From Urechis unicinctus (taxonomy: Eukaryota; Annelida; Polychaeta; Xenopneusta; Urechidae): a stretch of 64,000 bases of DNA. A model generated the notes under the pieces. The model ran no database searches. It was not told where the DNA came from and saw only the letters and a program-made list of their open reading frames with translations. The translations under genes and the position numbers were made by a program. Location: assembly GCA_034190875.2 (NCBI GenBank), contig CM067357.1:16624676-16688675 (forward strand), given 5' to 3'. This document shows positions 5,871 to 54,038 of this stretch, one piece after another (position 1 is the first letter of the stretch; the number at the start of each line of letters is the position of its first letter).

Positions 5871-5963
5871 GCTATAAAAGATCTATCGATCTATCTATCT
5901 ATCATATTATCTATCTATCTATCTATCTATGAATCCTATGATTTGTGGTTATCTAAATCTATC

Positions 5964-5964
<1 letters not shown>

Positions 5965-6015
<51 letters not shown>
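5965..6015. repeat. (AT)n microsatellite closing the simple-repeat island
   Basis: An AT run of about 24 units. Unique DNA resumes at about 6016. Confidence 0.93.
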
Positions 6016-6019
<4 letters not shown>

Positions 6020-8360
6020 ACGATTGCTACCATTTTGCTTCAAAAGACCGACCATTTTGTCGCACAGTTACATTTTGAACCATGATTTGTGGTTCAAAAA
6101 AGTTAATCTTGGTTAAATACTAGGTAAGGGCCTAATTCTGTAATAAATACAGGTTTAACACTGGAAATATTCGTTCTGAGGTTGGATTCACTGAAGTTGC
6201 ATTAATTTAAGCAATAATTGTGAATTACGGACCTTCTTTTTAAATTTGTATATTTTTACCTTACAACCAATTTGTCGCTTGATTAAAAACACTTTTTTAC
6301 TTATTTATTTCGAATATGTTTGTACCAACTATGGACAACATGCCATATCAATGTTTGGCCAACATTGTCTACAATTTTCACGAACATCATGTAACTTTTC
6401 ACAAAAATGGAAAAATATATATTTGGATCGCACGCTGCCACAATTTGACAAGCTTGGCTTGGTCAGCGATATGCGTATGTTGAGATCGCTTGATTTCCAT
6501 CTGCGGCGCAGTGCGAAGGTTAGTCGGCTCGTTCTTAATGATTTTCCAAATCGAATATTAATTTATTGGGAGTGCGTAAATTTTTTAACTCTTGACTTAT
6601 TGATTTGCGAACTGACCAAATGTCCAAAGGTGACCTAGACATAACAGGAAATTGAAATGTTATACAGTTGGGCCATTTGGGCGATAACGGAGTGTATTTG
6701 GGCTGCTCATTTCACGTGCCTCTACGAGCAGTCTTCAGATTTATTCTTCAGGCCGTAAAATCCATAAATTCTGGATCATATTAAAATCGTAATTCATGTG
6801 ACAATAGTGTGACTGAAAGTGTTGAAAACTGTATCAATTTTTAATATCAGTGGTGTGGGAGATTAAGTTTAAATTGCCGATTATACTTATGCGTTATGGT
6901 CTCTTGGGCTATTGACTAACTTAGTGAGTAAATGAGTTAGCCCATTTGAAGCGATTGACAGCGATTAAAATACATGGGGGCGGTGGGCGCATTTGCATCC
7001 ATATATCCGACCTATAGAGTTGCGGCTAACCTGAAAAAAAAGCATCCACAGAAAACAAAAAAAAATCATTAGGGACTGGACTTGATATGAATTATGTATT
7101 TCGTTTGAATGATTCTATTCAATAATACCAGATTATTTATTTACAGCTCCTAATATTTCTCAGTTTAATATGTATGATATATTTCCTTAGTAAGGTGGTC
7201 AATCAAACATTTTGAAAACATCACAACAGTTCAGTGGAAGTAGCTCAGCTAGAGTGTTCCAGAACTCTCTATTATTTGTAAATCCGACAGTCTGTTATTG
7301 GGATGCTATGGTGTCAAAATAAGGCTATTTATGCATGGGAAATCACACTATAAACATGGCTCAATAACCACTTTTAAGTGGTGAGCAGGTAATATTTCAT
7401 GGAACTACGTTCAATGACACCATGTAAATGGATAATATTCTTCAAATAACCTGTATCAGCGAATCCCAACTTTTACAGTCCAGTGGACACCACACAGCAG
7501 CATATGTAAACTAAACACTGACAAAAATGTCCTAGAATAAACGAGTTAATTTATCACATTCCTTTTAATACGATATATTTTCGATATATTTTCGTAGTAA
7601 AGCACCTCACTACTTAATAAGTAATGGACTCTCTTAATGATGTTGAAACTAAAAGTATTAGCTGTGATGTTATTCAGTACATGAAATCAAAAACAAAGTA
7701 CTTTTACCAATGAATATAATATGAGGCTCATGGGCCGTAAAGCTCTGGTGCCAACTATGTGACAACAAACACAAGCATTTTGCATAGTTTTGAATGGCAT
7801 TGTTAAAGGCTCACAGAACCCCACAAATTAGGTCACATTGACTTGAATGCCTGCCATTCTTGTGGCTGAAGAATGTGGGAGTGGCAACCAACTCTTACCA
7901 GCAGAGAGCAGAGGTCCAAAATGTTAACATACAAGTGCCCCCTGCAAGCAGAACAAATTACAACTTACTCAATAAAGCAAACCCTAGCTAAGGCCTAAGT
8001 AGAGACCAAAATATGTTTTTTAAAGTGATAAACACACCTCTAGTGGCCAAGAGGCTGCTTACTCTGTGTTGTTGTTGATCCAGATCCTACGATGCTAGCT
8101 CTCCATACAAAGTTAAAGCCTGTAGCTAGCATTACACTAAGCAAACCTACGATTGCTAATTGGATGTTGTAATATACGCTCAAAATCAAGGTATATAACC
8201 AATCGATACACAGCTATTTTGAACAATCAAAGGAATAACAAATCTTAGAAAAGAAATCAATTTTACTCACTTTAATTTTGAATCCGGAGCAAGCTTCTAG
8301 TCATAACAGTTGAATTATACAAGCTAAGGTCATATTGGCTCTTTAACTATATTTTGTGTC
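6020..8360. other. Non-coding DNA, no recognised feature
   Basis: Unique AT-rich sequence. A 130-codon plus-strand frame at 6246-6638 has no family resemblance and is within chance expectation. No repeat with a copy elsewhere in the window was noticed. Confidence 0.5.
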
Positions 8361-8369
8361 TGTTGCGCC

Positions 8370-8870
8370 ATAAGACTCACAACTTAACACATTGGTTTTA
8401 CAGCTGTCAAACCGCCAAAACACTCAGTCGTGGTAGGGCGGTGCTTTACTCGCTTTCTTCACAACCGTGTAAAGAATACGCGCGTAAGGAAACTCCTACA
8501 ACAAGTTTATCGAGACAAAGCATACTGCAACCCGGCGTAACCTAGTAACATGCGCCTCTGTTTTCAATTCGTCCGGTAGCGGTAGAAGAATGCAACTTGT
8601 GGTTAAACCGTACACGACTGAGTGCGTTTTAATAACTAGCATTGAAAGAACTTCACACGCGAAACTGGCGTATGGACCAGTGCTGTACGGTTACGGATTA
8701 TTCTCTTACACACTCAGCTCCTCAGCGAAACCCCAATCTTCTCTGCTTCAGTGTTTGCTCGAGATAAAACTCACTCGCCAAGGGGACTTCCCTTTCGGTA
8801 CCCCCGATATTTTAGTATGTTACGTCATCACAAATTGCATGTTTACACCAAGTGTATTTGATTGATACGA
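8370..8870 (+). promoter_or_regulatory. CpG-rich stretch, possible 5' end of the 9.8-16.3 kb locus
   Basis: CG dinucleotides are visibly clustered here, for example the CGCGCG near 8479. The DNA from about 9.2 kb to 16.3 kb is strongly CG-poor. In many invertebrates transcribed gene bodies are methylated and lose CG while promoters keep it, so this is a candidate promoter or first exon for the plus-strand locus downstream. I see no convincing TATA box, and open frames at 8354-8545 and 8590-8865 are unassigned. Confidence 0.3.
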
Positions 8871-9858
8871 ACTCTGGGTGATTTGATGGAGAGTTTTTCT
8901 TCAAGTTCGCGGACAAATATGGATGGCAGTGCTTGCATTGCGTCAAACAGAGACAAGTTGTGAACGGTTAAATCGGGTAATTATATGTTTAGCAAAGCTA
9001 GTGTCAAATAGAATGCTTTGTCAAAGACAATAGTGATTTGTCTGCAGCGATCTTGGACCCGAGGAACCTTGTTGACTGTTTGTTATAAATATAGTCTACC
9101 GCATGTTAGATTCGGACGTTGGTTCCGAAATAACTTTTCAGGTATACTTTAAGTTAGTGATGTGTCAAATTAAGGGTCAGTTTTAGCTCTGCTCTCAAGC
9201 TTTTTTTTTATCAAGCAAACTTACAGCCCCAGATTACACATGGACCACTCTTATTTTGATGGTCATTTATATTCGAAATATCATCTTTGCATGACGTTTC
9301 ATCCCTGATATGCTAATCAAATTCTTTAAAAAAAATCGAATATTCTATGTTGACTATATTGGAAATATTTCTAATTGCATCTTATTATTTCTGATCTGGT
9401 ACCTTACCCTTGTCCAAAGGTTTCTACTAACAAGTAATACTGAACTAAAAGAGGCAAAGAAGCTAATTGATGAAAATTGGCAACCAAACACATAACAATA
9501 ACAGAAAATAATACCCAAGATAGAAGTGGTGGTAAGACTGGTTTATCAAAATAAAATCAATTATATCATGTATCTACAGTGAATCCATGGTTGAGGCGAA
9601 GCAACAGTGTGAGCTTTGTGTAAGAAGTGAATCATTGTGATTTAATAAGTGAATTTCTTTTCTAGGATATCATGCATAGGCATGATTGAATACCCTGGTT
9701 ATATCTTCATTATGTGTATCTCAAAATATAAATAAGGTGCTTATCAATTCTCATGTGCTTGATTATGTATTTTAAGTGAAATTTTGAATGTAGGTGTTTA
9801 ATTGCAATATGAAGTTGGTTATGAATTAATAAAAAATATAGTGTTCAAATGCTTTCAG

Positions 9859-10201
9859 TTAAATGCTTCTATGGCGAACTTTTCATATGGAAGACGAATG
9901 GTGAGTTTATCCATATTTAGCAAGTGTGATGCATGTTAGAAATATCAACTGTTTCCATCAAATCTATAAATGTATATAGTTATATAGTTCACTCACTGAT
10001 ATTTTCTGCACTTGTTAATTCCTGAATGAATTGGGAACAAACAATCTCTTGTTGATCCACATATTCCTCATTTGTAAGGTTTTGCTTTGATTTGTCATAA
10101 TACAGGTTGACGCCTCAATGCTGATGGTCAAACGAGGAAGCTGTCCTCTTTCAGGGAGAACATTCAGAGTAGATGAACCTCTCTGTATAAATAAAGAGAA
10201 G
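9859..10201 (+). CDS. Two candidate upstream exons (9859-9900 and 10106-10201)
   Basis: The first is bounded by acceptor GCTTTCAG and donor GTGAGT and encodes 14 codons including MANFSYGRRM. The second is bounded by acceptor AATACAG and donor GTATTT and encodes 32 codons including VKRGSCPLSGRTFRVDE. The two join in phase 0 with an open frame. They lie just upstream of the octapeptide-repeat exon, but the second ends in phase 0 while that exon needs phase 1. So an exon is missing, the donor is misplaced, or these belong to a different transcript. Confidence 0.35.
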
Positions 10202-10600
10202 GTATTTGTTCATTATTTTATTTCTATTATTCATTCTGGTCCATTAGTTTACATAGATATGTTACATATGCAACATATTGTATTTTGGCACTAATATTTC
10301 AGAAGAAAGGACCCAGTTAACAAGGAAATCTTGTGCAAATATAAAGTGACAGATTTATTTCATTTAATCAATTCACTGCTGATTCACTGTTGATTTATGT
10401 TGGCTTGTTTTTAAAGGTTTGTGCTTAACATTTGTGTATATAACAATTTTATCATTGTTAACCCATAATATTAATAAACGACATGAGTGACAGTGTTTTC
10501 CCTGTTCAGGTATATGTTCATATTTTACTTTCACATACTGACCCATCTTATGAATAGTGATATGTGAACTGTTTATAAACAATGTGTTAATTTTATCTAG

Positions 10601-11537
10601 GGAGACCTTCACAACCGAGAACCTCGGATTCTCTTGTATCCTCATCAAAGGGGTCTCCTGTCGTCTCTCAACCAGGATCTCCTGTGATCTCTCAGCATGG
10701 GTCTCCTGTGGTCTCTCAGCTTGGGTTTCCTGTGATCTCTAAGCATGGGTCTCCTGTGGTTTCTCAGCTTGGGTCTCCTGTGTCTCAGTTTGGGTCTCCT
10801 TTGGTGTCTCAGCATGGGTCTCCTGTGGTCTCTCAGCCTGGGTCTCCTGTGGTCTCTCAGCATGGGTCTCCTGTGGTCTCTCAGCTTAGGTCTCCTGTGG
10901 TCTCTCAGCTTATGTCTCCTGTGGTCTCTCAGCATGGGTCCCTTGTGGTCTCTCAGCTTAGGTCTCCTGTGTCTCAGCATGGGTCTCCTGTGGTCTCTCA
11001 GCGTGGGTCTCATGTGGTCTCTCAACCAGGATCTCCTGTGGTCTCTCAGCTTGGGTCGCCTGTAGTTTCTCAACTAGGATCTCCTGTGATCTCTCAACAT
11101 GGGTCTCCTGTAGTCTTTCAACCAGGATCTCCTGTGGTCTCTCAGCATGGGTCTCCAGTGGTCTCTCAACCAGGATCTCCTCTGCTCTCCCAGCATGGGT
11201 CTCCTGTGGTCTATCAGCTTGGGTATCTTGTGGTCTCTCAGCCTGGGTCTCCTGTGGTCTCTCAGCATGGGTCTCCTGTGGTCTCTCAGCTTAGGTCTCC
11301 TGTGGTCTCTCAGCTTATGTCTCCTGTGGTCTCTCAGCTTATGGTCTCCTGTCTCTCAGCATGGGTCTCCTGTGGTCTCTCAGTGTGGGTCTCATGTGGT
11401 CTCTCAACCAGGATCTCCTGTGATCTCTCTGCAAGTTACTCCTGAGTCATCTGAACAATGGACTCCTCTGATCTCTCAACATGTGTCTCCTGAGATCTAC
11501 CATGAGGGGTCTCCTGTGATCTCAGTAGCTTGTGAAG
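10601..11537 (+). pseudogene. Octapeptide-repeat exon (GSPVVSQH/L-type)
   Basis: The exon starts after ATCTAG at 10600 and ends in phase 1 before GTATTG at 11538. It encodes about 33 copies of an eight-residue unit of the form GSPVVSQ followed by H, L, P or R. A 24-base DNA unit underlies it, with occasional seven-residue variants that lack one Val. An extra G at about 11344 shifts the frame, and the repeat and its tail (VTPESSEQW) continue in the new frame up to the donor. The unit is rich in Ser, Pro and Gln and has no predicted fold. It is probably a disordered N-terminal region of the zinc-finger / recombinase-like protein. The minus strand is also open across much of it, which is a by-product of the repeat. 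Confidence 0.65.
10654..11440. repeat. 24-bp coding minisatellite
   Basis: Tandem units built on GGTCTCCTGTGGTCTCTCAG plus four variable bases, most often CATG or CTTG. Alternating variants recur in the same order at about 10820-11000 and 11230-11400, which points to duplication of multi-unit blocks. Because the unit is a multiple of three, length changes keep the frame. Confidence 0.9.
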
Positions 11538-12519
11538 GTATTGTGTTCACATTCTCTTTGCACAATCTATGTAATGATCGATATATCTCAGCACAAAATT
11601 TCTTATCTGACATTAGGCTCATGATGATTGCAGCTAATCAACACGAATCAACATGGATACAAGAGCTGTTTTTAATTAGTTGTCACTGTTTACATACTTG
11701 TATTCATAATACACTGAACACTCAGTACTTGGTGTCATCTCTAATGTAATGTTTTCTGTAATGTCATCTTTTATGTAACAATGACTTAATGTTATCTGTA
11801 CAATAATGTGTAGAGTTTATGAAAAATTGTTTTAACCTTGCTATGTGTTGCCAAATGCTTTGATATGCCCATATGATTATTTCATTTTGCAGTCTTAGAG
11901 AGAGTTGAAGACAGTCAAAGCAGTTTCATGGAGCAGCCTGGTTAGTAATCCTGTTTAACATAATGTTATACTTGGTTCATAATTTCCTATCTTTCATGAC
12001 GTCTAATGTCAAAATTGTTTTAGGTAGCAGATATGGAATTGCTCTAAGTGATCTAACCTTTTGTGGCTTACTCAAGGTGGATTCAGTATTTTGTCAGGCA
12101 TACTTCTTGTTAATGCAGTTATCCAACTAGTTTGTTGGGTGTAATATCTTATTTCCACAATATCTAAGCAATGAATGTTTTAAATCTGCTTTATTTTTGG
12201 TCATGGGTTTCATTCCCATCCTCAGCATTTTGACTGTACAAAACATTTAATTATTTTTGTCAGTTTCTATTACATTTTTAAAAGGTACATATTTGTACAA
12301 CTACATTGAGATTTGATAACTGTTTTCATCGACATTATGATATGTTTATGAAAATGGTTAAGTTTATGTGACAATTGTGTTTTTTGCAGAAGTCTATCGT
12401 ACCTGATTCTGGATCCCAAGATGGTAGCTATGCTTAACATATTGTATTACTATTCAGCAATTATGAAGTATATGTATCATCATCAGTTTCCACTATGTTA
12501 TGTTATGTTGTAATTAAAG

Positions 12520-12723
12520 GTGAGTCAGACCCCTTTAGGAATGTTCATGATGAGGCAGCTGAAAGAGTGGTCCCCACTGTGCTTTCTTTGAGTTTATGCT
12601 TGGTTGAGGGATCTGGTCAAGCTGATGAAAATGCTATTGCCAGCTTTTCATGCCAGGTTTGTCACAGTATGTTTAAGAAGAAGGGAGGATACACCGTGCA
12701 CATGAAAACGCACACAATGCAGA
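12520..12723 (+). pseudogene. Exon with classical C2H2 zinc finger
   Basis: A 204-base phase 1-1 exon ending at donor GTGAGT. After an acidic start it encodes a finger with Cys-x2-Cys-x12-His-x3-His spacing (CQVC ... HMKTH). It should bind one zinc and probably contact DNA or RNA. The left border AAAG/GTGAGT also looks like a donor, so the acceptor assignment is less certain than the right border. It is joined to the main exon at 12850 with the frame kept. Confidence 0.6.
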
Positions 12724-12849
12724 GTGAGTAGAGCTTGTGAGCTTATGTTTTATTAATTTTGTATGTCAATGATTGCTTTTCTTTTGTACCGACTGAATGA
12801 AATGTCTAAATGAATGTGTTTTGACTTAAATTGTATTTATTGAACACAG

Positions 12850-14463
12850 AACCAACAGGCATTGCTAAGAAAAGACTCTCCAGAAAGTGTCCCTATTGTT
12901 GGAAAAATCAAAGCAACTTAACGAGGCATCTTAAACAACAGCATAAAGAACACAAGGAAGTAGCAGCCATTGTGGACAGCAATATGTCAGCATTGAATGC
13001 ACGCAGAGCATTTGCCAAGAAACGTAATGCAGGCATCTTAGCTAGGAACAAAGCCCAAGTCATGGCTGGAGATGATGGAACTGAATCAAATCAGTATCTT
13101 CAGCAGACTCTTGACAAGTCAGAAGCAGTCGTGCACTGCAATGTTTGTAGTGGCAGTTACTCAAACAAGTACTTCTATCGCCACAAGTTGATCTGTAAGA
13201 AGTCAGAGTCTAATAGGCCTGCACAACCAGTTTTAACCACCCTTTTGGGCATTAAGGAAACTGATGATTTTCTTGATGTATTAAGCAGGTTCCAGACCAA
13301 TGAAATTGGCCACACATGTCGCACAGACGAAACAATCAAATTAATTGGCAGGCATTTGTAGCAGAAGGATAAAACAAAGGTGGACAAGCATGATGAAGTA
13401 AGAAAAAGTGTAATGTCGTATATGAGAAACTTGGCCAACCTGTATCTCATCTTCAAAAGTTGTGCAAAGAATGACAGCAAGTTTCAGGATGCAGCTAATA
13501 TGTATGACCGTAAACACTGGAGTGCTCCTCAGGAGGCAATAGTAAATGTCACTACCAATGATCTGGAAACACATGAAAAACCAATCAAGTATGGCTTATA
13601 AAACACCCTGTATTACCTGCTAATTAAGGCAGCTGATGTTCTGCTGGGCAATGAGTTGGCTCAAAAGGGTCAGGAAATGAAAGTTCAAGAAATCAAAAAC
13701 TTTTTGATTCTGCTCAAACACAACCAGAACAGTCTGTTTGGTGATTCTAAGTATTTGATAAATAAAGCCAGACAAGAAAAACTCAGACTTCCTGAAAGAA
13801 CACCACCTGAAAAAACCATGAGTGTTCTTCGTAATTACACGCTAGATAGAATCAATGAATTGGTTGCAGCTAATGAAATTGGCAAGACAGAGTATGTTGA
13901 AATGAGAAATTTAGTTTGTTGTCGGATGACATTGTTTAATGCTAGGCGTGGAGGTGAGGCTTCAAGGCTGAAAGTGAGTCAATGGATGAACAGATCAAAG
14001 TGGTTAGACAGTGATCAAGTGAAGCAACTCTCAGATGAAGAACAACAGTGGTTCAAAGAATTGACCATCTTGTATTATCCCAAATGACTTAGTGGCCGCT
14101 ATTGAGATACTTATATCTCCTGATATCAGGAAAAGGGCTGGGGTTCTGGATGAAAATGACTTTTTGTTCCCTAGTACAGGTTCCACTCTACACTGTGGTG
14201 GATAGAATACTACCAAATATGTTTGCATACAAGCAGGAATACAAACAGACCTGATTAATGCTACCAACCAGAGAGGTAGACTATCTACCTTGTATGCTGC
14301 CCAAGACATACAAGAGAATCAACGGGAGTTTTTTTTTACTCGCACATGGGGCATAGTGCTCAGGTGAATGCTGGCACATATCAAAGACCACTCGCTGTGC
14401 AAGCCGTCACAAGAGTCGGGAGCTACCTATTGACTGTGGATAGTCAGCTAGCTGGGGAAAGAG
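12850..14463 (+). pseudogene. Main exon: two atypical zinc fingers and recombinase-like core
   Basis: It begins after ACACAG. The first finger is CPYC-x9-H-x4-H, near 12886-12943. The second is CNVC with a distal His and Cys (RHKLIC), near 13138-13195. The segment with DKHDEVRKSV and the long helical stretch after it lead to the box NARRGGE at 13938-13958, which would hold the first catalytic Arg of a tyrosine recombinase. Beyond a frameshift near 14075 come FPSTGS, an in-frame TAG at 14203, and TNQRGRLSTLYAA, where the family usually has Lys and an MRHR-like box. So the Lys and a His appear lost. After a one-base shift at the T-run near 14335 come HMGHS and a Tyr in AGTYQRP, the expected positions of the last His and the nucleophile. 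It also has stops at 13359 (TAG) and 13599 (TAA). Confidence 0.65.
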
Positions 14464-14546
14464 GTGAGTTATTATCTCAGTTATGCTGTCATATGTTTGC
14501 TCTGATAAACTGTAAATTATAAATGAATATAACATGTAACTTCTAG

Positions 14547-14850
14547 ATTATGATGATTCATTTATTAAGAAGGCTCTTGTAGCAGCATTGTCATTTGAGG
14601 ACAAAGCCAGTAAAATTGTTCTGGACATGTGGAACAAGATGTACTTGATTTCTCAAAATGCTAAGGCGTTAACAATTGAAAGTCCAGTCACTTAATCAAG
14701 CAATTATTTGCAATTATATTTCAGTCACCCCTTTACTGAGTGCTGATGCTCCAGACCCTGGTCCATCCTCTTCTTATGAGCATGCCACTACTAAAGGTCC
14801 TGTCACTAATGATGATTCAACAATGTTGTCTGATGGATCTGTTGAAACAG
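14547..14850 (+). pseudogene. Two linker exons (14547-14681 and 14725-14850)
   Basis: The first follows CTTCTAG and encodes 45 codons including DDSFIKKALVAALSFEDKAS. Its donor, GAAA/GTCCAG, is weak but keeps phase 1. The second follows ATTTCAG, is 126 bases long, encodes a Pro/Ser/Asp-rich segment (ADAPDPGPSSS) and ends at ACAG/GTTGGA. They would form a flexible acidic linker between the recombinase-like core and the basic C-terminus. Confidence 0.5.
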
Positions 14851-15099
14851 GTTGGATACTCTATGACATTCCTATAAATTGGATAAAAGTGCATTATATC
14901 CATTGCTTCTGAAATATTTAAAGATAATGCTACTATAAGCTGATCACTACTCAGTGCTTTATCTGTCAGCTATTTATTTACACATTGTGTGGCATATTTC
15001 CACCTTTGTCTTCAAATGTTTCATAAGTGGCTTTGGAGTCATTATTATACAAATAGGATTGTGTATATTGTCCCTACACTACAGTTTTATGCATATTAG

Positions 15100-16019
15100 G
15101 CAGCCAAACACTGATTGAGGACTCACCCCAATGTTCTACCTCTGAGGATACTGGTATTAAGATCACTTCTGATGAAGATAGCTGTCCTGTGGTTAACAGC
15201 AGTGAGTCAATGCCAACTTTCTGATCTCATTTATCTGTTTTACAGGCTGTCAGCTGTTAAACTTCTTTATTATTTGGGGATCATCTCTCAATTCACTAAT
15301 AATTGTTGTGTTTTAAGTAACATCTTCATTTTGTTGGGTGGATGAGGGGGGGGGGGGTGGTGTAATTATGTTATATTGAAATTACTTTCATATTTCACCA
15401 ATCATTCCTGAATGTTTGACTGAAATGATTTATAGGATATATTTTGCATCAGTTAAAAGGGCAAGATGGACCACAACTCAAACAAAGCTCATCCAAACAG
15501 AGATCAAGAAGTGGGTCCAGCTCCCAAGTCCGATAAAAAAATTACCTGGTAAACTTTATTCTTTAATTTTACTTTATTTGTAATAGTGGATGTAGCACCT
15601 TAAAAATATCAGTGGTTATCTGTTTCACAGCTTCTGGTCTTAATACCAATTTCAAACTACATGTTTTTGTAATGACATTATTACATGACAGGTATGGGCA
15701 TCTTGATACTTTTGTTTATTGTATACATTTAGTCTTTAATTTGCATTTTCTATTTTCTATTTCCTTTATTAAGCGTCTTTTATGGATATATTCTCGTTCT
15801 GCTAATTGGTGTAAAATGTGGTTTATTATTATAGGGAAGAAGTTGATGGAGTCGTTCATGGAGACCAAGGATTGGCCCTTCAGTTACTCACAAGTTCGGA
15901 CAAAGATCATGAATGAACAGAGGAAATGTCAACTCAGTTTACTATACCTGTTGGAAGATATTATTGTTAGTATTACTGCTTTACTTGTTCAATATCCCAT
16001 TAAGTTAATAACATTGTAG
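15100..16019 (+). pseudogene. Three C-terminal exons (15100-15201, 15453-15548, 15835-16019)
   Basis: The first, 102 bases between ATTAG and GTGAGT, is acidic (SEDTGIKITSDEDS). The second follows CATCAG, encodes KRARWTTTQTK and ends with KKLPG at donor GTAAAC. The third follows TTATAG, encodes KKLMESFMETKDWPFSYSQV and a basic segment, and ends in TAG at 16017. From memory, related proteins end with the same KR-x-W then KLPGKK pattern, a short helical region that may bind DNA. All junctions are phase 1. The hydrophobic tail after QRKCQLSL may mean the original stop has been lost and the end extended. Confidence 0.6.
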
Positions 16020-16236
16020 CGTCTTTCTTATAAGTCAAACAGTGTCTTTTTTATTCTATTTCACCAGTACATTGCATGTAATTTTTATTACTAATTTTCT
16101 ACCCCTATGTATAACATATGTAACCTTATCAGAGGCCCAGTTGTTAATGCTGCCAGTAAAACTTTGTAAGCAAGTTTTGTAACTGTCTGAATTAACTTTT
16201 CCTGTGAAAAGCTTATTTGTCTCTTGCATATTTTTG

Positions 16237-16279
16237 AATAAAAATGAATAATTCCTGTTTCTGTTAATATTACAATAAA
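16237..16279 (+). terminator. Candidate polyadenylation signals
   Basis: AATAAA occurs at 16237-16242 and 16274-16279, about 220-260 bases after the last stop of the recombinase-like locus. That is a sensible distance for its 3' end. Confidence 0.4.
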
Positions 16280-16417
16280 TATAATCAATTTAAACAAATT
16301 TCACCTAAATTACTTACATTTTATATACAGATATTTAATTCGGGTGCCATTTACAACTTCTCTTTCTATTTGAGTTATAATTCAAGTTGATATAGTAACT
16401 TATACTCATTTTGTCCA

Positions 16418-16880
16418 TAATGGTTGTGTATGTAGTCGAAGTGATTGTATGTAACACTTTGGTTGTGTATATAGTATGAGTCAAATTGGTTGTATATATA
16501 GTATGTAACAATATGGTTGATGTTTTGCATGACCATTGGTGCTTGACTTTTTTGAACCGCCTTTTTTGAACCAAAAAAAACATATAATCTCTCCCGCTAA
16601 AATGTTTATAAAAATTAACTTAATTTGACTGCTGCAAATCATCATTCAACTACGATAACATATGTTAAAAATGATTTGTCATTGGCATGATGTGTTTCAG
16701 ACAAAAAACCCAAAATGGTGGTATATATGGATATTGTACAAAATGGTATATATCTCTCTATCTATCTATCTATTGTTCGATTCGCCCGCCGGCCCGTCTG
16801 TCTGCCTTCCTGCCTGTCGGCCTGCTTGCCTCCTAATTTGCCTGCCTGCCTCCCTCCCCGCCTCCTTCTTTTTCTCCATA
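16418..16880. repeat. Low-complexity cluster: short GTTGTRTATATAG repeats, then CTAT and CCTG tracts
   Basis: At 16418-16518 the block TTGGTTGTRTATATAGTATG recurs imperfectly about three times. At 16750-16775 there is a short CTAT run, followed by a CCTG/CCTC-rich pyrimidine tract to about 16870. These are simple-repeat products without coding meaning. Confidence 0.6.
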
Positions 16881-41507: not shown

Positions 41508-41607
41508 NNNNNNNNNNNNNNNNNNNNNNNNNNNNNNNNNNNNNNNNNNNNNNNNNNNNNNNNNNNNNNNNNNNNNNNNNNNNNNNNNNNNNNNNNNNNN
41601 NNNNNNN
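41508..41607. other. Assembly gap of exactly 100 N
   Basis: One hundred Ns, the usual placeholder for a gap of unknown size. It lies inside copy C, and the sequence to its right does not match the rest of the unit. So the true array may contain further copies. Confidence 0.97.
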
Positions 41608-48669: not shown

Positions 48670-50083
48670 TATTATTATTATATCATTTATTCGCAAATCA
48701 AAGTTTACAAAAAGATATATTAATTAAGCAATAAAAAAAAAAAAATACATGAGCACCAATTAGTTTGTACAAAGAAACACATGAAGCTCATCTGCCTCTT
48801 GCAGTGTTAAAGAAGTTAACAAACTGCCTTCGCGCTGCTGACCCAGTTCTTGCGAAGCGCATATTGTCGCCTTGTCTTCTGCTGATACTACATTAATATT
48901 TAAAAGCAATTCGCGTACATTATTAAGTTTACCTTCATTAATTAATCTTAGTTGTTGGTAGTCTAAATTTAGTAATGACAGACAAGATCTTACATTATTC
49001 GATACGACAGATGAGCTTACATTAGTGAGCATAGTAGCAAGTCGAACTTTTGGGTTGTTACTAACGGTGCATTTAACCCAAAAATTAACAAAACGTAACA
49101 ATAACTGAGTGCGTATATCTGGTCTGCCTACAAGCAGCGGTAAAAAACGAGACCTCGTTCTTCTATTAAGCTTAAGAACTCTCCTTACACACTTTCGCCA
49201 AGCAACACTTATTTTTTCAAGTGACTTTAAATCCAATTTCCATAAAGGACTACCATAGAACCTGTACAAAAGGTATCAAAAAGCCTAGTGCGAACGTCGG
49301 TGCGGCAAAAGCCGAATCTGGAGATCAAAATATTAGTACGATAAAACAATTCTCCTACAGCTTTTTCGATATTCGCATCGTTGTTATCATAACCAATATT
49401 ACTGCCTAGATGAACAACTTTAGAGTACTTTAGTAAAATAGCTCCATTCAGCCGTAATTCGAGATTGGTATAACATTGTGGAATATTGTAGCACAGCAGC
49501 ATACTTTTTTCACTATTGAACATTACATCGTATTCTTGTGCGTATTCTTCGCATATTGAAATCATAAGCTCGGCAGCAGTGACTGAGGGAGCAAGGAGTG
49601 TTAAGTCGTCAGCATATCCAAATGCACCCATAAACTGATGACCGACATGACAACCAACATTACTACGTTCAAGACGATTAAGCAGCTCATCGATATAAAT
49701 ACAGAAAAGAATCGGCGATAACACACCGCCCTGCTTTATGCCATTACTGCATTGGAATGCCTCAGACACATTAGAGCCCCATTTAACTAACAACGATTGG
49801 TTGAAATACATATAAAGGAGCAACTTTACAATAGTAGGACACAAACCTCTACGTATCAATAATTGAAACGATTTAACATAATTAACCCTATCAAATGCCT
49901 TCGATGCGTCTAGCGTCACAACATAACATGGCGATTTTTGATTGACATGTAAATCTATAATTTCTTGAAGTACATAGGTACACTGAGAAGTGGAATGGTC
50001 TGGTTTAAAACCAAACTGGAGGTGACTGGTGCTTATAACATTTGAATACTTAGACAAAATAACATCTAAAACCTACAACACAA
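48670..50083 (-). mobile_element. 5'-truncated non-LTR retrotransposon (LINE) with frameshift
   Basis: A minus-strand frame from 50083 to about 49262 encodes the reverse-transcriptase core: LDASKAFD, then GIKQGGVLSP, then GYADDL with the two catalytic Asp (about residues 49-56, 106-115 and 147-152 of the 276-codon open part). A one-base shift near 49262 moves coding to a second frame that continues with YGSPLWKL to the stop at 48760. This gives the thumb and C-terminal region (VLKLNRRTR, LPLLVGRPDIRTQLLL). A T/A-rich 3' region with AATAAATGATATAATAATA follows. The endonuclease half is missing, because similarity ends abruptly at 50083 against a SINE-like fragment. It is inactive. I cannot fix the clade by eye. 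Confidence 0.88.
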
Positions 50084-52784: not shown

Positions 52785-53108
52785 ACACACAAAATAGCGC
52801 ACCAAAACAGAAGCTCCGCAGAAGTCCACAGACGTCCATCAACTTTGGTTTGCAAACGGAGTCCTTCGTTTACCTGTGCACCTAAAACCGTGTTGGTAAA
52901 TTGAAGTAAATCGGACGCGCAACAGAATATTAAATAATAATATCTTGGCCTTACCCCAAGGTGCGATAGTCATAACGTTAAGTTGAGAATCAGATCAAAA
53001 ACAGCAGAGCCTTAAGGCATGATATGCAACTGTACAAAAGTGTGCTCAATAGGTAAACTTTCATAACAATGATGTTTTAAAAGATCACGTAAAAATAGCT
53101 ATTGATTC

Positions 53109-54038
53109 ATGAACATGTGTTTCAGGAGAATTCTAGCTGGCGGAACCGAATACATCAGAATGGAAGACGTTAAAGCGTTGATAAAACTGGAGGTCCCTGA
53201 TGATGTCAACGATAGATCTTTATATTGCTCCAGCAATGGAAGCGATACAAATGCCCATAGAAGAACGCATACTGGTGTAAAAGCTTATAAATGTGACATT
53301 TGTGAAAAGTCTTTCACTCAAGGAAGTACTCTGACAGGACATATGAGAACGCATACTGGTGAAAAACATTTCAAATGTGACACTTGTGGAAAGTCGTTTG
53401 CTCATGGAAATACTCTGAAACGACATATTACACAGCATACTGGTGAAAAACCTCACAAGTGTGACACTTGTGGAAAGTCATTTGCTATTGAAAGAACTCT
53501 GACAAGACATATGAGAACACATACTGGTGAAAAACCCTACAAATGCGATATTTGCGGAAAGTCGTTCGCTAATGGAAGCAATATCAAAGAGCATAAAAAA
53601 ACGCATACTGGTGAAAAACCCCACAAATGTGTCACTTGTGGAAAGTCGTTCGCTAATGGAAATACTCTGAAAGGACATATTAGAATGCATACTGGTGAGA
53701 AACCCTACAAATGTGACACTTGTGGAAAGTCGTTCACTCAAGGAAGTACTCTTATAAGCCATATGAAAAGGCATACTGGTGAAAAACCTTACAAATGTGA
53801 CATATGTGGAAAGTCGTTCACTCAAGTAAGTACTCTGAAAGGACATATGAGAAAGCATACTGGTGAAAAACCTCACAATTGTGACACTTGTGGAAAGTCG
53901 TTCACTCATGGAAGTTCTCTAATAAGACATATGAGAACGCATACTGGTGAAAAACCTTACAAATGTGACATTTGTGGAAAGTCGTTCACACAAGGAAGAA
54001 CTCTGATGGGACATATGAGAAAGCATATTGGTGAATAA
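53109..54038 (+). CDS. C2H2 zinc-finger protein with nine tandem fingers
   Basis: The frame encodes a short acidic N-terminus, one decayed finger (from about residue 39), then nine regular fingers of Cys-x2-Cys-x12-His-x3-His joined by HTGEKPY/H-type linkers, to a TAA at 54036. If the acceptor at 53125 is used, the first Met is at 53160 (MEDVKALIKLEV), giving about 292 residues; the ATG at 53109 would then be intronic. Helix residues at -1, 2, 3 and 6 are, in order, QSTG, HNTR, IRTR, NSNE, NNTG, QSTS, QSTG, HSSR and QRTG. They are little diversified, as in a recently amplified array. The product is probably a nuclear sequence-specific DNA binder. There is no KRAB, BTB or other effector domain. 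TAA replaces the Lys codon of the next linker, so the array is shortened (see 54039-54293). Confidence 0.85.
   Translation: MNMCFRRILAGGTEYIRMEDVKALIKLEVPDDVNDRSLYCSSNGSDTNAHRRTHTGVKAYKCDICEKSFTQGSTLTGHMRTHTGEKHFKCDTCGKSFAHGNTLKRHITQHTGEKPHKCDTCGKSFAIERTLTRHMRTHTGEKPYKCDICGKSFANGSNIKEHKKTHTGEKPHKCVTCGKSFANGNTLKGHIRMHTGEKPYKCDTCGKSFTQGSTLISHMKRHTGEKPYKCDICGKSFTQVSTLKGHMRKHTGEKPHNCDTCGKSFTHGSSLIRHMRTHTGEKPYKCDICGKSFTQGRTLMGHMRKHIGE

Follow-up and report, generated by a model that had tools for sequence, protein, structure and literature searches.

A decayed copy of a probable tyrosine-recombinase-driven DNA transposon, inserted at TA microsatellites, in the genome of Urechis unicinctus

The 64,000-nucleotide stretch of the Urechis unicinctus genome studied here (C16:16624676-16688675 of the assembly; hereafter the window) carries, between positions 10601 and about 16019, a predicted gene of nine exons that encodes C2H2-like zinc-finger motifs and a tyrosine-recombinase-like core, and that is interrupted by stops and frame shifts. 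The question raised by this locus is whether such lesions mark the recent death of a host gene, as proposed in a preliminary description that saw in it a domesticated transposon protein or an allele-specific null, or the decay of a mobile element still bearing its own gene. The evidence gathered below makes it quite likely that window positions 6016-16748 represent a DNA transposon copy, about 10.8 kb long and now decayed, whose single recognisable gene has about nine exons and a recombinase-like product that would be the transposase. Features lie on the + strand unless stated otherwise.

Copies, ends and target of the element

When window positions 12000-14500 (2.5 kb) were used as a nucleotide query against the window's own assembly (1.19 Gb), at least 46 matches were obtained, the window itself included (the best 40 of 51 candidates were scored, so that all counts are lower bounds). 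At least 15 other copies, distributed over many contigs, matched query positions 5-2501 end to end with 94-96% identity, introns included, and the retention of introns in the copies indicates that the element moves as DNA. Twenty matching loci were fetched, with left flanks added for 18 of them, and their comparison with the window showed similarity beginning at position 6016 and stopping at 16748, with sharp boundaries on both sides. These limits define the whole element, truncated at its 3' tip. The interval 10601-16019, described earlier as a single gene, therefore holds as an exon frame and fails as a unit, since it covers about half of a multi-copy element of approximately 10.8 kb. Among 19 joined copies, the 12 with both end motifs measured 9.2-11.6 kb. 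The main exon (exon 4, see below) formed one open reading frame (ORF) of 571-579 amino acids in 4 of the 20 fetched loci (L010, L012, L017 and L022), which answers, for this exon, the earlier suggestion of looking for an intact paralogue in the same genome. Elsewhere inside the window no paralogue of the gene was found.

The element starts with TTGTACGATTGCTACC and finishes with GGTAGCTATTGTAAG, with TA repeats extending outward in most copies. The inner 19 bp of the two ends formed an inverted repeat matching at 16 of 19 positions in copy L009, a value reached by none of 200,000 random pairs drawn from within the element. In the window, the 5' terminal inverted repeat occupies positions 6019-6037 and a remnant of the 3' one, complete in other copies, positions 16739-16748 (- strand). 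A subterminal repeat, GGTTCAAAAAAG, was found in L012 and then located in the window by reading, with one 5' copy at 6090-6103 and two 3' copies in the opposite orientation at 16546-16573 (- strand).

The target appears to be of a fixed kind. In the window, a (TA)n microsatellite (5960-6015) adjoins the element start and a TA/TCTA microsatellite (16749-16776) adjoins its end. Every one of the 15 scorable 5' ends adjoined a TA run, as did 12 of the 14 scorable 3' ends (the exceptions being L021 and L024), the remaining copies having no motif or running off the data; in the window as a whole, TA runs of at least 8 units account for 1.8-1.9% of the sequence. Genome searches with the ends (best 40 of 122 candidates scored for the 5' end and best 40 of 111 for the 3'-end type, counts again being lower bounds) gave 15 further 5' ends with 87-89% identity, and all nine borders read among these lay at TA tracts, one of them via a TG run. 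The exact 5' motif occurred 37 times in the genome, with no occurrence of the backward control. At the left end of L017 (G000:C14:9063866-9064088), two 5' terminal motifs stand 205 bp apart with TA repeats between them, perhaps as a result of insertion beside an older broken end.

The same ends also delimit much shorter units. Five same-strand pairs of 5' and 3' ends were spaced by 1.01-1.04 kb (C17:32715772, C17:32742747, C14:14599748, C5:14223383 and C14:42709667), and the three 3' borders read in these relatives all entered TA-rich repeats. Because a gene of the size described here does not fit into them, these relatives, known from their ends and spacing, look like non-autonomous derivatives that would be acted on in trans.

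The recombinase-like core and a possible mechanism

In tyrosine recombinases the conserved motifs follow one another in the order Arg I, hairpin Lys, box II, box III His and Tyr. Assigning catalytic roles by alignment and motif order, box I (ARRGGE, with the presumed catalytic Arg) was placed at 13942-13959, box II (TNQRGR, which keeps its Arg and has no His, as throughout the family) at 14263-14280, box III (HMGHS) at 14343-14357 and the codon of the presumed nucleophilic Tyr (within GTYQRP) at 14379-14381. When the same assembly was searched at the protein level (best 75 of 676 candidates scored, giving lower bounds), at least 84 matches were returned, with 24 matched stretches at 48-55% identity free of stops. 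Six of these relatives were fetched and fell by eye into three families (L047/L050, L048 and L049/L051/L052). In their alignment with L017, the motifs ARRGGE, GKGNHL, TN[QN]R[GA]R, H[ML]GHS and GTYQRP were kept in every member spanning them, meaning that the R, K, R, H and Y residues are conserved across families about 50% identical. With Arg I, Lys, Arg II, His III and Tyr in the expected order, the core has the motif signature of a putative tyrosine recombinase. A second family (about 53% identical), found at G000:C159:30880 and other places, presents at least ten copies of a 411-amino-acid frame and two of a 412-amino-acid frame, all without stops, and is possibly more active than the family studied here.

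The preliminary description had regarded TNQRGR as a departure from relatives carrying Lys and His at that place. This view was not sustained by the same-genome alignment, where box II reads TNQRGR, TNNRGR or TNQRAR in 6 of 7 members (L051 ends before it); being present family-wide, TNQRGR is the family's own motif and not a product of decay. The conserved Lys belongs to a separate motif, GKGNHL, which the window copy has lost through a 35-bp deletion.

These features would be most simply explained by a mechanism in which the protein, acting as transposase, binds the inverted repeats near the ends and brings ends and target together via a short TA-type overlap, strand exchange proceeding through the Tyr. 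Placed side by side, the ends would provide two 13-bp arms, GGTAGCTATTGTA and TACGATTGCTACC, alike at 11 of 13 positions as judged by eye and flanking a short TA-bearing spacer, an arrangement that would correspond to that of a recombinase core site. Enzymes of this type typically use inverted repeats of 11-13 bp separated by 6-8 bp, according to the part of PMC3212892 used here. A TA overlap would, in turn, make TA tracts favoured targets.

Other observations bear on this interpretation in both directions. The recognition of the core by profiles, which had been put forward as a check, was partial. Pfam, NCBIfam and PHROGs profiles did not recognise it, and family libraries and PDB sequences gave no useful match. 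A deep integrase profile of 74 sequences (10 of 80 integrase loci were left out for having no ORF with the required motif pattern) did match this core, and only this core, in an alignment ending just before box II, a limit that slightly lowers the confidence placed in a recombinase-driven element. A comparison with a four-sequence profile was not significant and did not exceed shuffled sequences. Structural alignments with XerH, XerD and Cre gave 13-17% sequence identity and a weak likeness of fold, so that support from the fold is mixed, and a predicted model of the core alone had no clear structural match. The Thr that stands at the box II His position in 6 of the 7 members further lowers the case for membership of the tyrosine recombinases; the residue at this position varies among known recombinases, however, so that Thr does not exclude it. 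Finally, joined ends, such as a circle or tandem junction would produce, had no exact match in the assembly.

Inverted repeats and a TA target are also typical of DDE elements, and the element's own ends fit such elements equally well. It could be envisaged, therefore, that a DDE transposase acting in trans moves the element through its inverted repeats, the recombinase-like gene being a passenger or a regulator. Precedents for this arrangement can be drawn from the portions of two papers used here: sesarmid crab nimaviruses reach (AT)n by means of a Ginger2-like DDE enzyme (PMC10871703), and in MarCry-1_FO a Crypton is found together with a Mariner-type enzyme, 16-bp terminal inverted repeats (TIRs) and TA duplications (PMC3212892). 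Nevertheless, no DDE domain, nor any other enzyme, was recognised in the element frames searched, most of the 5' half having been only listed for open frames, and recombinase motifs kept at about 50% identity would be unneeded in a mere passenger. What tips the balance is that the conserved recombinase is the sole recognised gene, and a DDE enzyme in trans is accordingly considered unlikely. The element would thus be an intron-bearing DNA transposon with a TA-microsatellite target, probably driven by its tyrosine recombinase.

Gene structure and decay of the window copy

The recognisable parts of the gene are an exon made of 24-bp repeats, the C2H2-like motifs, the tyrosine-recombinase-like core and a short predicted C-terminal segment. 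The preliminary description was correct in joining nine exons in one phase: all have AG/GT borders and all junctions are in phase 1, exon starts and ends having been predicted from phase and consensus, not from transcripts. Exon 1 (10601-11537) consists largely of about 33 copies of a 24-bp repeat coding for SPVVSQxG. Over this repeat (10651-11429), several frames are open for long stretches, and most copies differ from the window in repeat length. Exon 2 (11893-11940) was placed by phase and AG/GT borders, and exon 3 (12520-12723) contains a C2H2-like finger at 12645-12713 (Pfam E 0.0016, below the cut-off). Exon 4 (12850-14463) is the main one and includes a second C2H2-like motif at 12885-12959 (below Pfam cut-offs), the recombinase-like core and all three stops. 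The frame continues past the core through exons 5-9, which provide the predicted C-terminal segment: exon 5 (14547-14681, donor inferred from phase), exons 6 (14725-14850) and 7 (15100-15201), both placed by phase and AG/GT borders, exon 8 (KRARWTTTQTKL..., 15453-15548, acceptor inferred from phase) and exon 9 (KKLMESFMETKDWPFSYSQVRTKIMNEQRKCQ..., from 15835), which runs to the 3' end at about 16019 as first described. Two tentative features lie upstream, namely a possible first coding exon running from an ATG to a GT donor (9871-9900), not in phase with the nine-exon model, and a possible exon with one open frame (10106-10201), phase mismatched to exon 1. An additional, tenth exon was contemplated near 12390-12423 and rejected, as it would break the phase.

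The exon alignment comprised the window and 19 other copies, with L028 excluded as partial and too short. The commonest form of each exon border was found in 7 to 17 of the 19, and the splice dinucleotides were mostly retained (the exon-5 donor at 14681 and the exon-8 acceptor at 15453 fell outside the comparison; the AG before exon 2 was lost in two copies). That the exon frame is not fortuitous follows from four other copies in which it is open throughout.

The lesions of the window copy were confirmed as first reported, both in their position and in the type of codon that each stop replaced, which matches the sense codons of other copies. Stop 1 (13359-13361) corresponds to a sense codon in all 19 other copies, stop 2 (13599-13601) likewise in all 19, with one codon common to 18, and stop 3 (14203-14205) in 18 of the 19. 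The three shifts correspond to a frame change near 11350, within the 24-bp repeat exon, to the 35-bp loss at 14070-14071 that removed the GKGNHL motif and shifted the frame, and to a 2-bp gain at a T run (14329-14330), where one base is absent from 19 and the other from 17 of the 19 copies. In addition, 10 bp are missing near 13083 and 1 bp has been gained near 13111, changes that jointly preserve the frame. Both losses and the 1-bp gain are private to the window when compared with all 19 copies. Through the stops, the shifts and the disappearance of the Lys motif, the copy would have been inactivated since its insertion.

Over the positions in common, identity between the window and the 14 young copies is 97.8-98.5%, compared with 98.2-99.8% among the young copies themselves. 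The 22 classed differences of the window comprise 4 synonymous and 15 non-synonymous changes and 3 stops (expected shares 24%, 72% and 4%; p 0.80) and look neutral. In the older copy L025, synonymous changes were clearly in excess (29 of 56 non-stop changes, p 2e-5), the p value having been computed for this copy and the window only; with 5 of 25 synonymous changes in L023, 9 of 29 in L024, 10 of 34 in L026 and 12 of 36 in L027, none of the other older copies stands out. Purifying selection on the active lineage is therefore supported, as far as sequence comparison goes, by one copy together with the conservation between families.

In this context, the C2H2-like motifs, the recombinase-like core, the transposon origin and the recent death were rightly recognised in the preliminary description; domestication and the allele-specific null did not withstand comparison with the rest of the genome. 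A single-copy domesticated protein that has just died, or a null allele of it, would agree with the conserved splice sites and the few lesions of the window copy. Against this stand the other copies matching the whole query, interspersed and sharp-ended, with shared ends and target where these were read, the copies elsewhere with an open main exon and the neutral pattern of change, and no match was found to DUF3504, the domain of a domesticated Crypton gene, in what is a multi-copy gene with its presumed catalytic residues kept. Both versions are accordingly very improbable, and what appeared to be a dying domesticated gene is explained as an ordinary dead transposon copy, one of many across the genome, while the family to which it belongs deserves moderate interest.

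Assembly or read errors could also be invoked to produce stops and shifts in an intact copy, and one of the shifts does lie in a T run, a common place for errors. The lesions are, however, many and independent (the 10- and 35-bp losses, the three stops, the shortened 3' end and 22 differences in coding sequence, in neutral proportions), which leaves this explanation scarcely any probability. The weakest proposal, a recombinase-bearing retrotransposon of the DIRS/Ngaro type deprived of its reverse transcriptase, would account for the recombinase-like core and is hardly credible given the introns kept in the copies compared, the lack of reverse transcriptase in the element frames searched and the 1-kb relatives with both ends.

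Other features of the window lie outside the element. Between 29725 and 41507, a unit of about 4.75 kb is repeated in about 2.5 tandem copies (97.7-98.7% identical) up to a run of 100 Ns (about 41508-41607), being either a tandem array or a false assembly duplication. A reverse transcriptase fragment (Pfam RVT_1, E 3.9e-25), probably a piece of a non-long-terminal-repeat retrotransposon, lies at 49227-50072 (- strand), and an open C2H2 zinc-finger array built on an 84-bp repeat at 53106-54038 (+ strand). Rfam gave no match in the window at gathering scores.

Comparison with known systems

Among animals, DNA transposons driven by recombinases are uncommon and little understood. A family with copies whose main exon is open, sharply defined ends, a constant type of target and short non-autonomous partners would allow excision, overlap and target choice to be directly tested. 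With no recognition by Pfam, NCBIfam or PHROGs, genes of this kind have probably been annotated as uncharacterised proteins of the host or, as in this case, taken for host genes that are dying. Among the paper titles and abstract openings listed in a literature survey, none concerned a DNA transposon that has a tyrosine recombinase and targets TA microsatellites, Repbase, where an entry may exist, being outside its scope, and a search of viral contigs and prokaryote genomes confirmed no relatives. It is possible, with slightly less than even chances, that the element represents an undescribed superfamily of animal DNA transposons, characterised by a zinc-finger tyrosine recombinase with Thr for the box II His, terminal inverted arms, a TA overlap giving access to a (TA)n safe harbour that marks nearly all the borders read and is shared by short derivatives, and several open-frame families in the genome.

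The closest resemblance is to Cryptons (CryptonA/I in animals), which, as described in the part of Kojima and Jurka 2011 (PMC3212892) used here, are likewise DNA transposons with a tyrosine recombinase as main gene and with non-autonomous relatives, and occur in animals including a mollusc. The same part of that paper reports neither terminal repeats nor a C-terminal domain for animal Cryptons. The present element differs by its 16/19 inverted repeat, its predicted C-terminal segment, the C2H2-like motifs, a long intron-rich gene and the TA-microsatellite target. As to the short direct repeats expected at both ends of a Crypton, the ends here lie in TA runs, in which a short TA repeat is indistinguishable from the target. 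Because of its inverted terminal repeats, the element resembles Cryptons without being filed as one, being set apart by their published description.

Endogenous nimaviruses offer a second parallel. In the sections of PMC10871703 used here, majaniviruses are described as having recombinases with a C2H2 zinc-binding part and inserting into simple repeats, and two 28S-ribosomal-DNA-specific members as having predicted multi-exon recombinase genes, as in the present case. Compared by description, those are large viral genomes directed to TAACC repeats or 28S ribosomal DNA, whereas the element here has about 10.8 kb, one recognisable gene and a (TA)n target. XerH, XerD and Cre share with the core the order of motifs and, weakly, the predicted fold; the core departs from them in having no box II His, in its low sequence identity and in its eukaryotic architecture. 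With regard to the target, MuTAnT and other (TA)n-targeting elements show the same preference for TA microsatellites and the same coexistence of autonomous and short non-autonomous copies, MuTAnT differing in being a plant element with a Mutator-like (mudrA-like) enzyme, as presented in the part of PMC4486113 used here.

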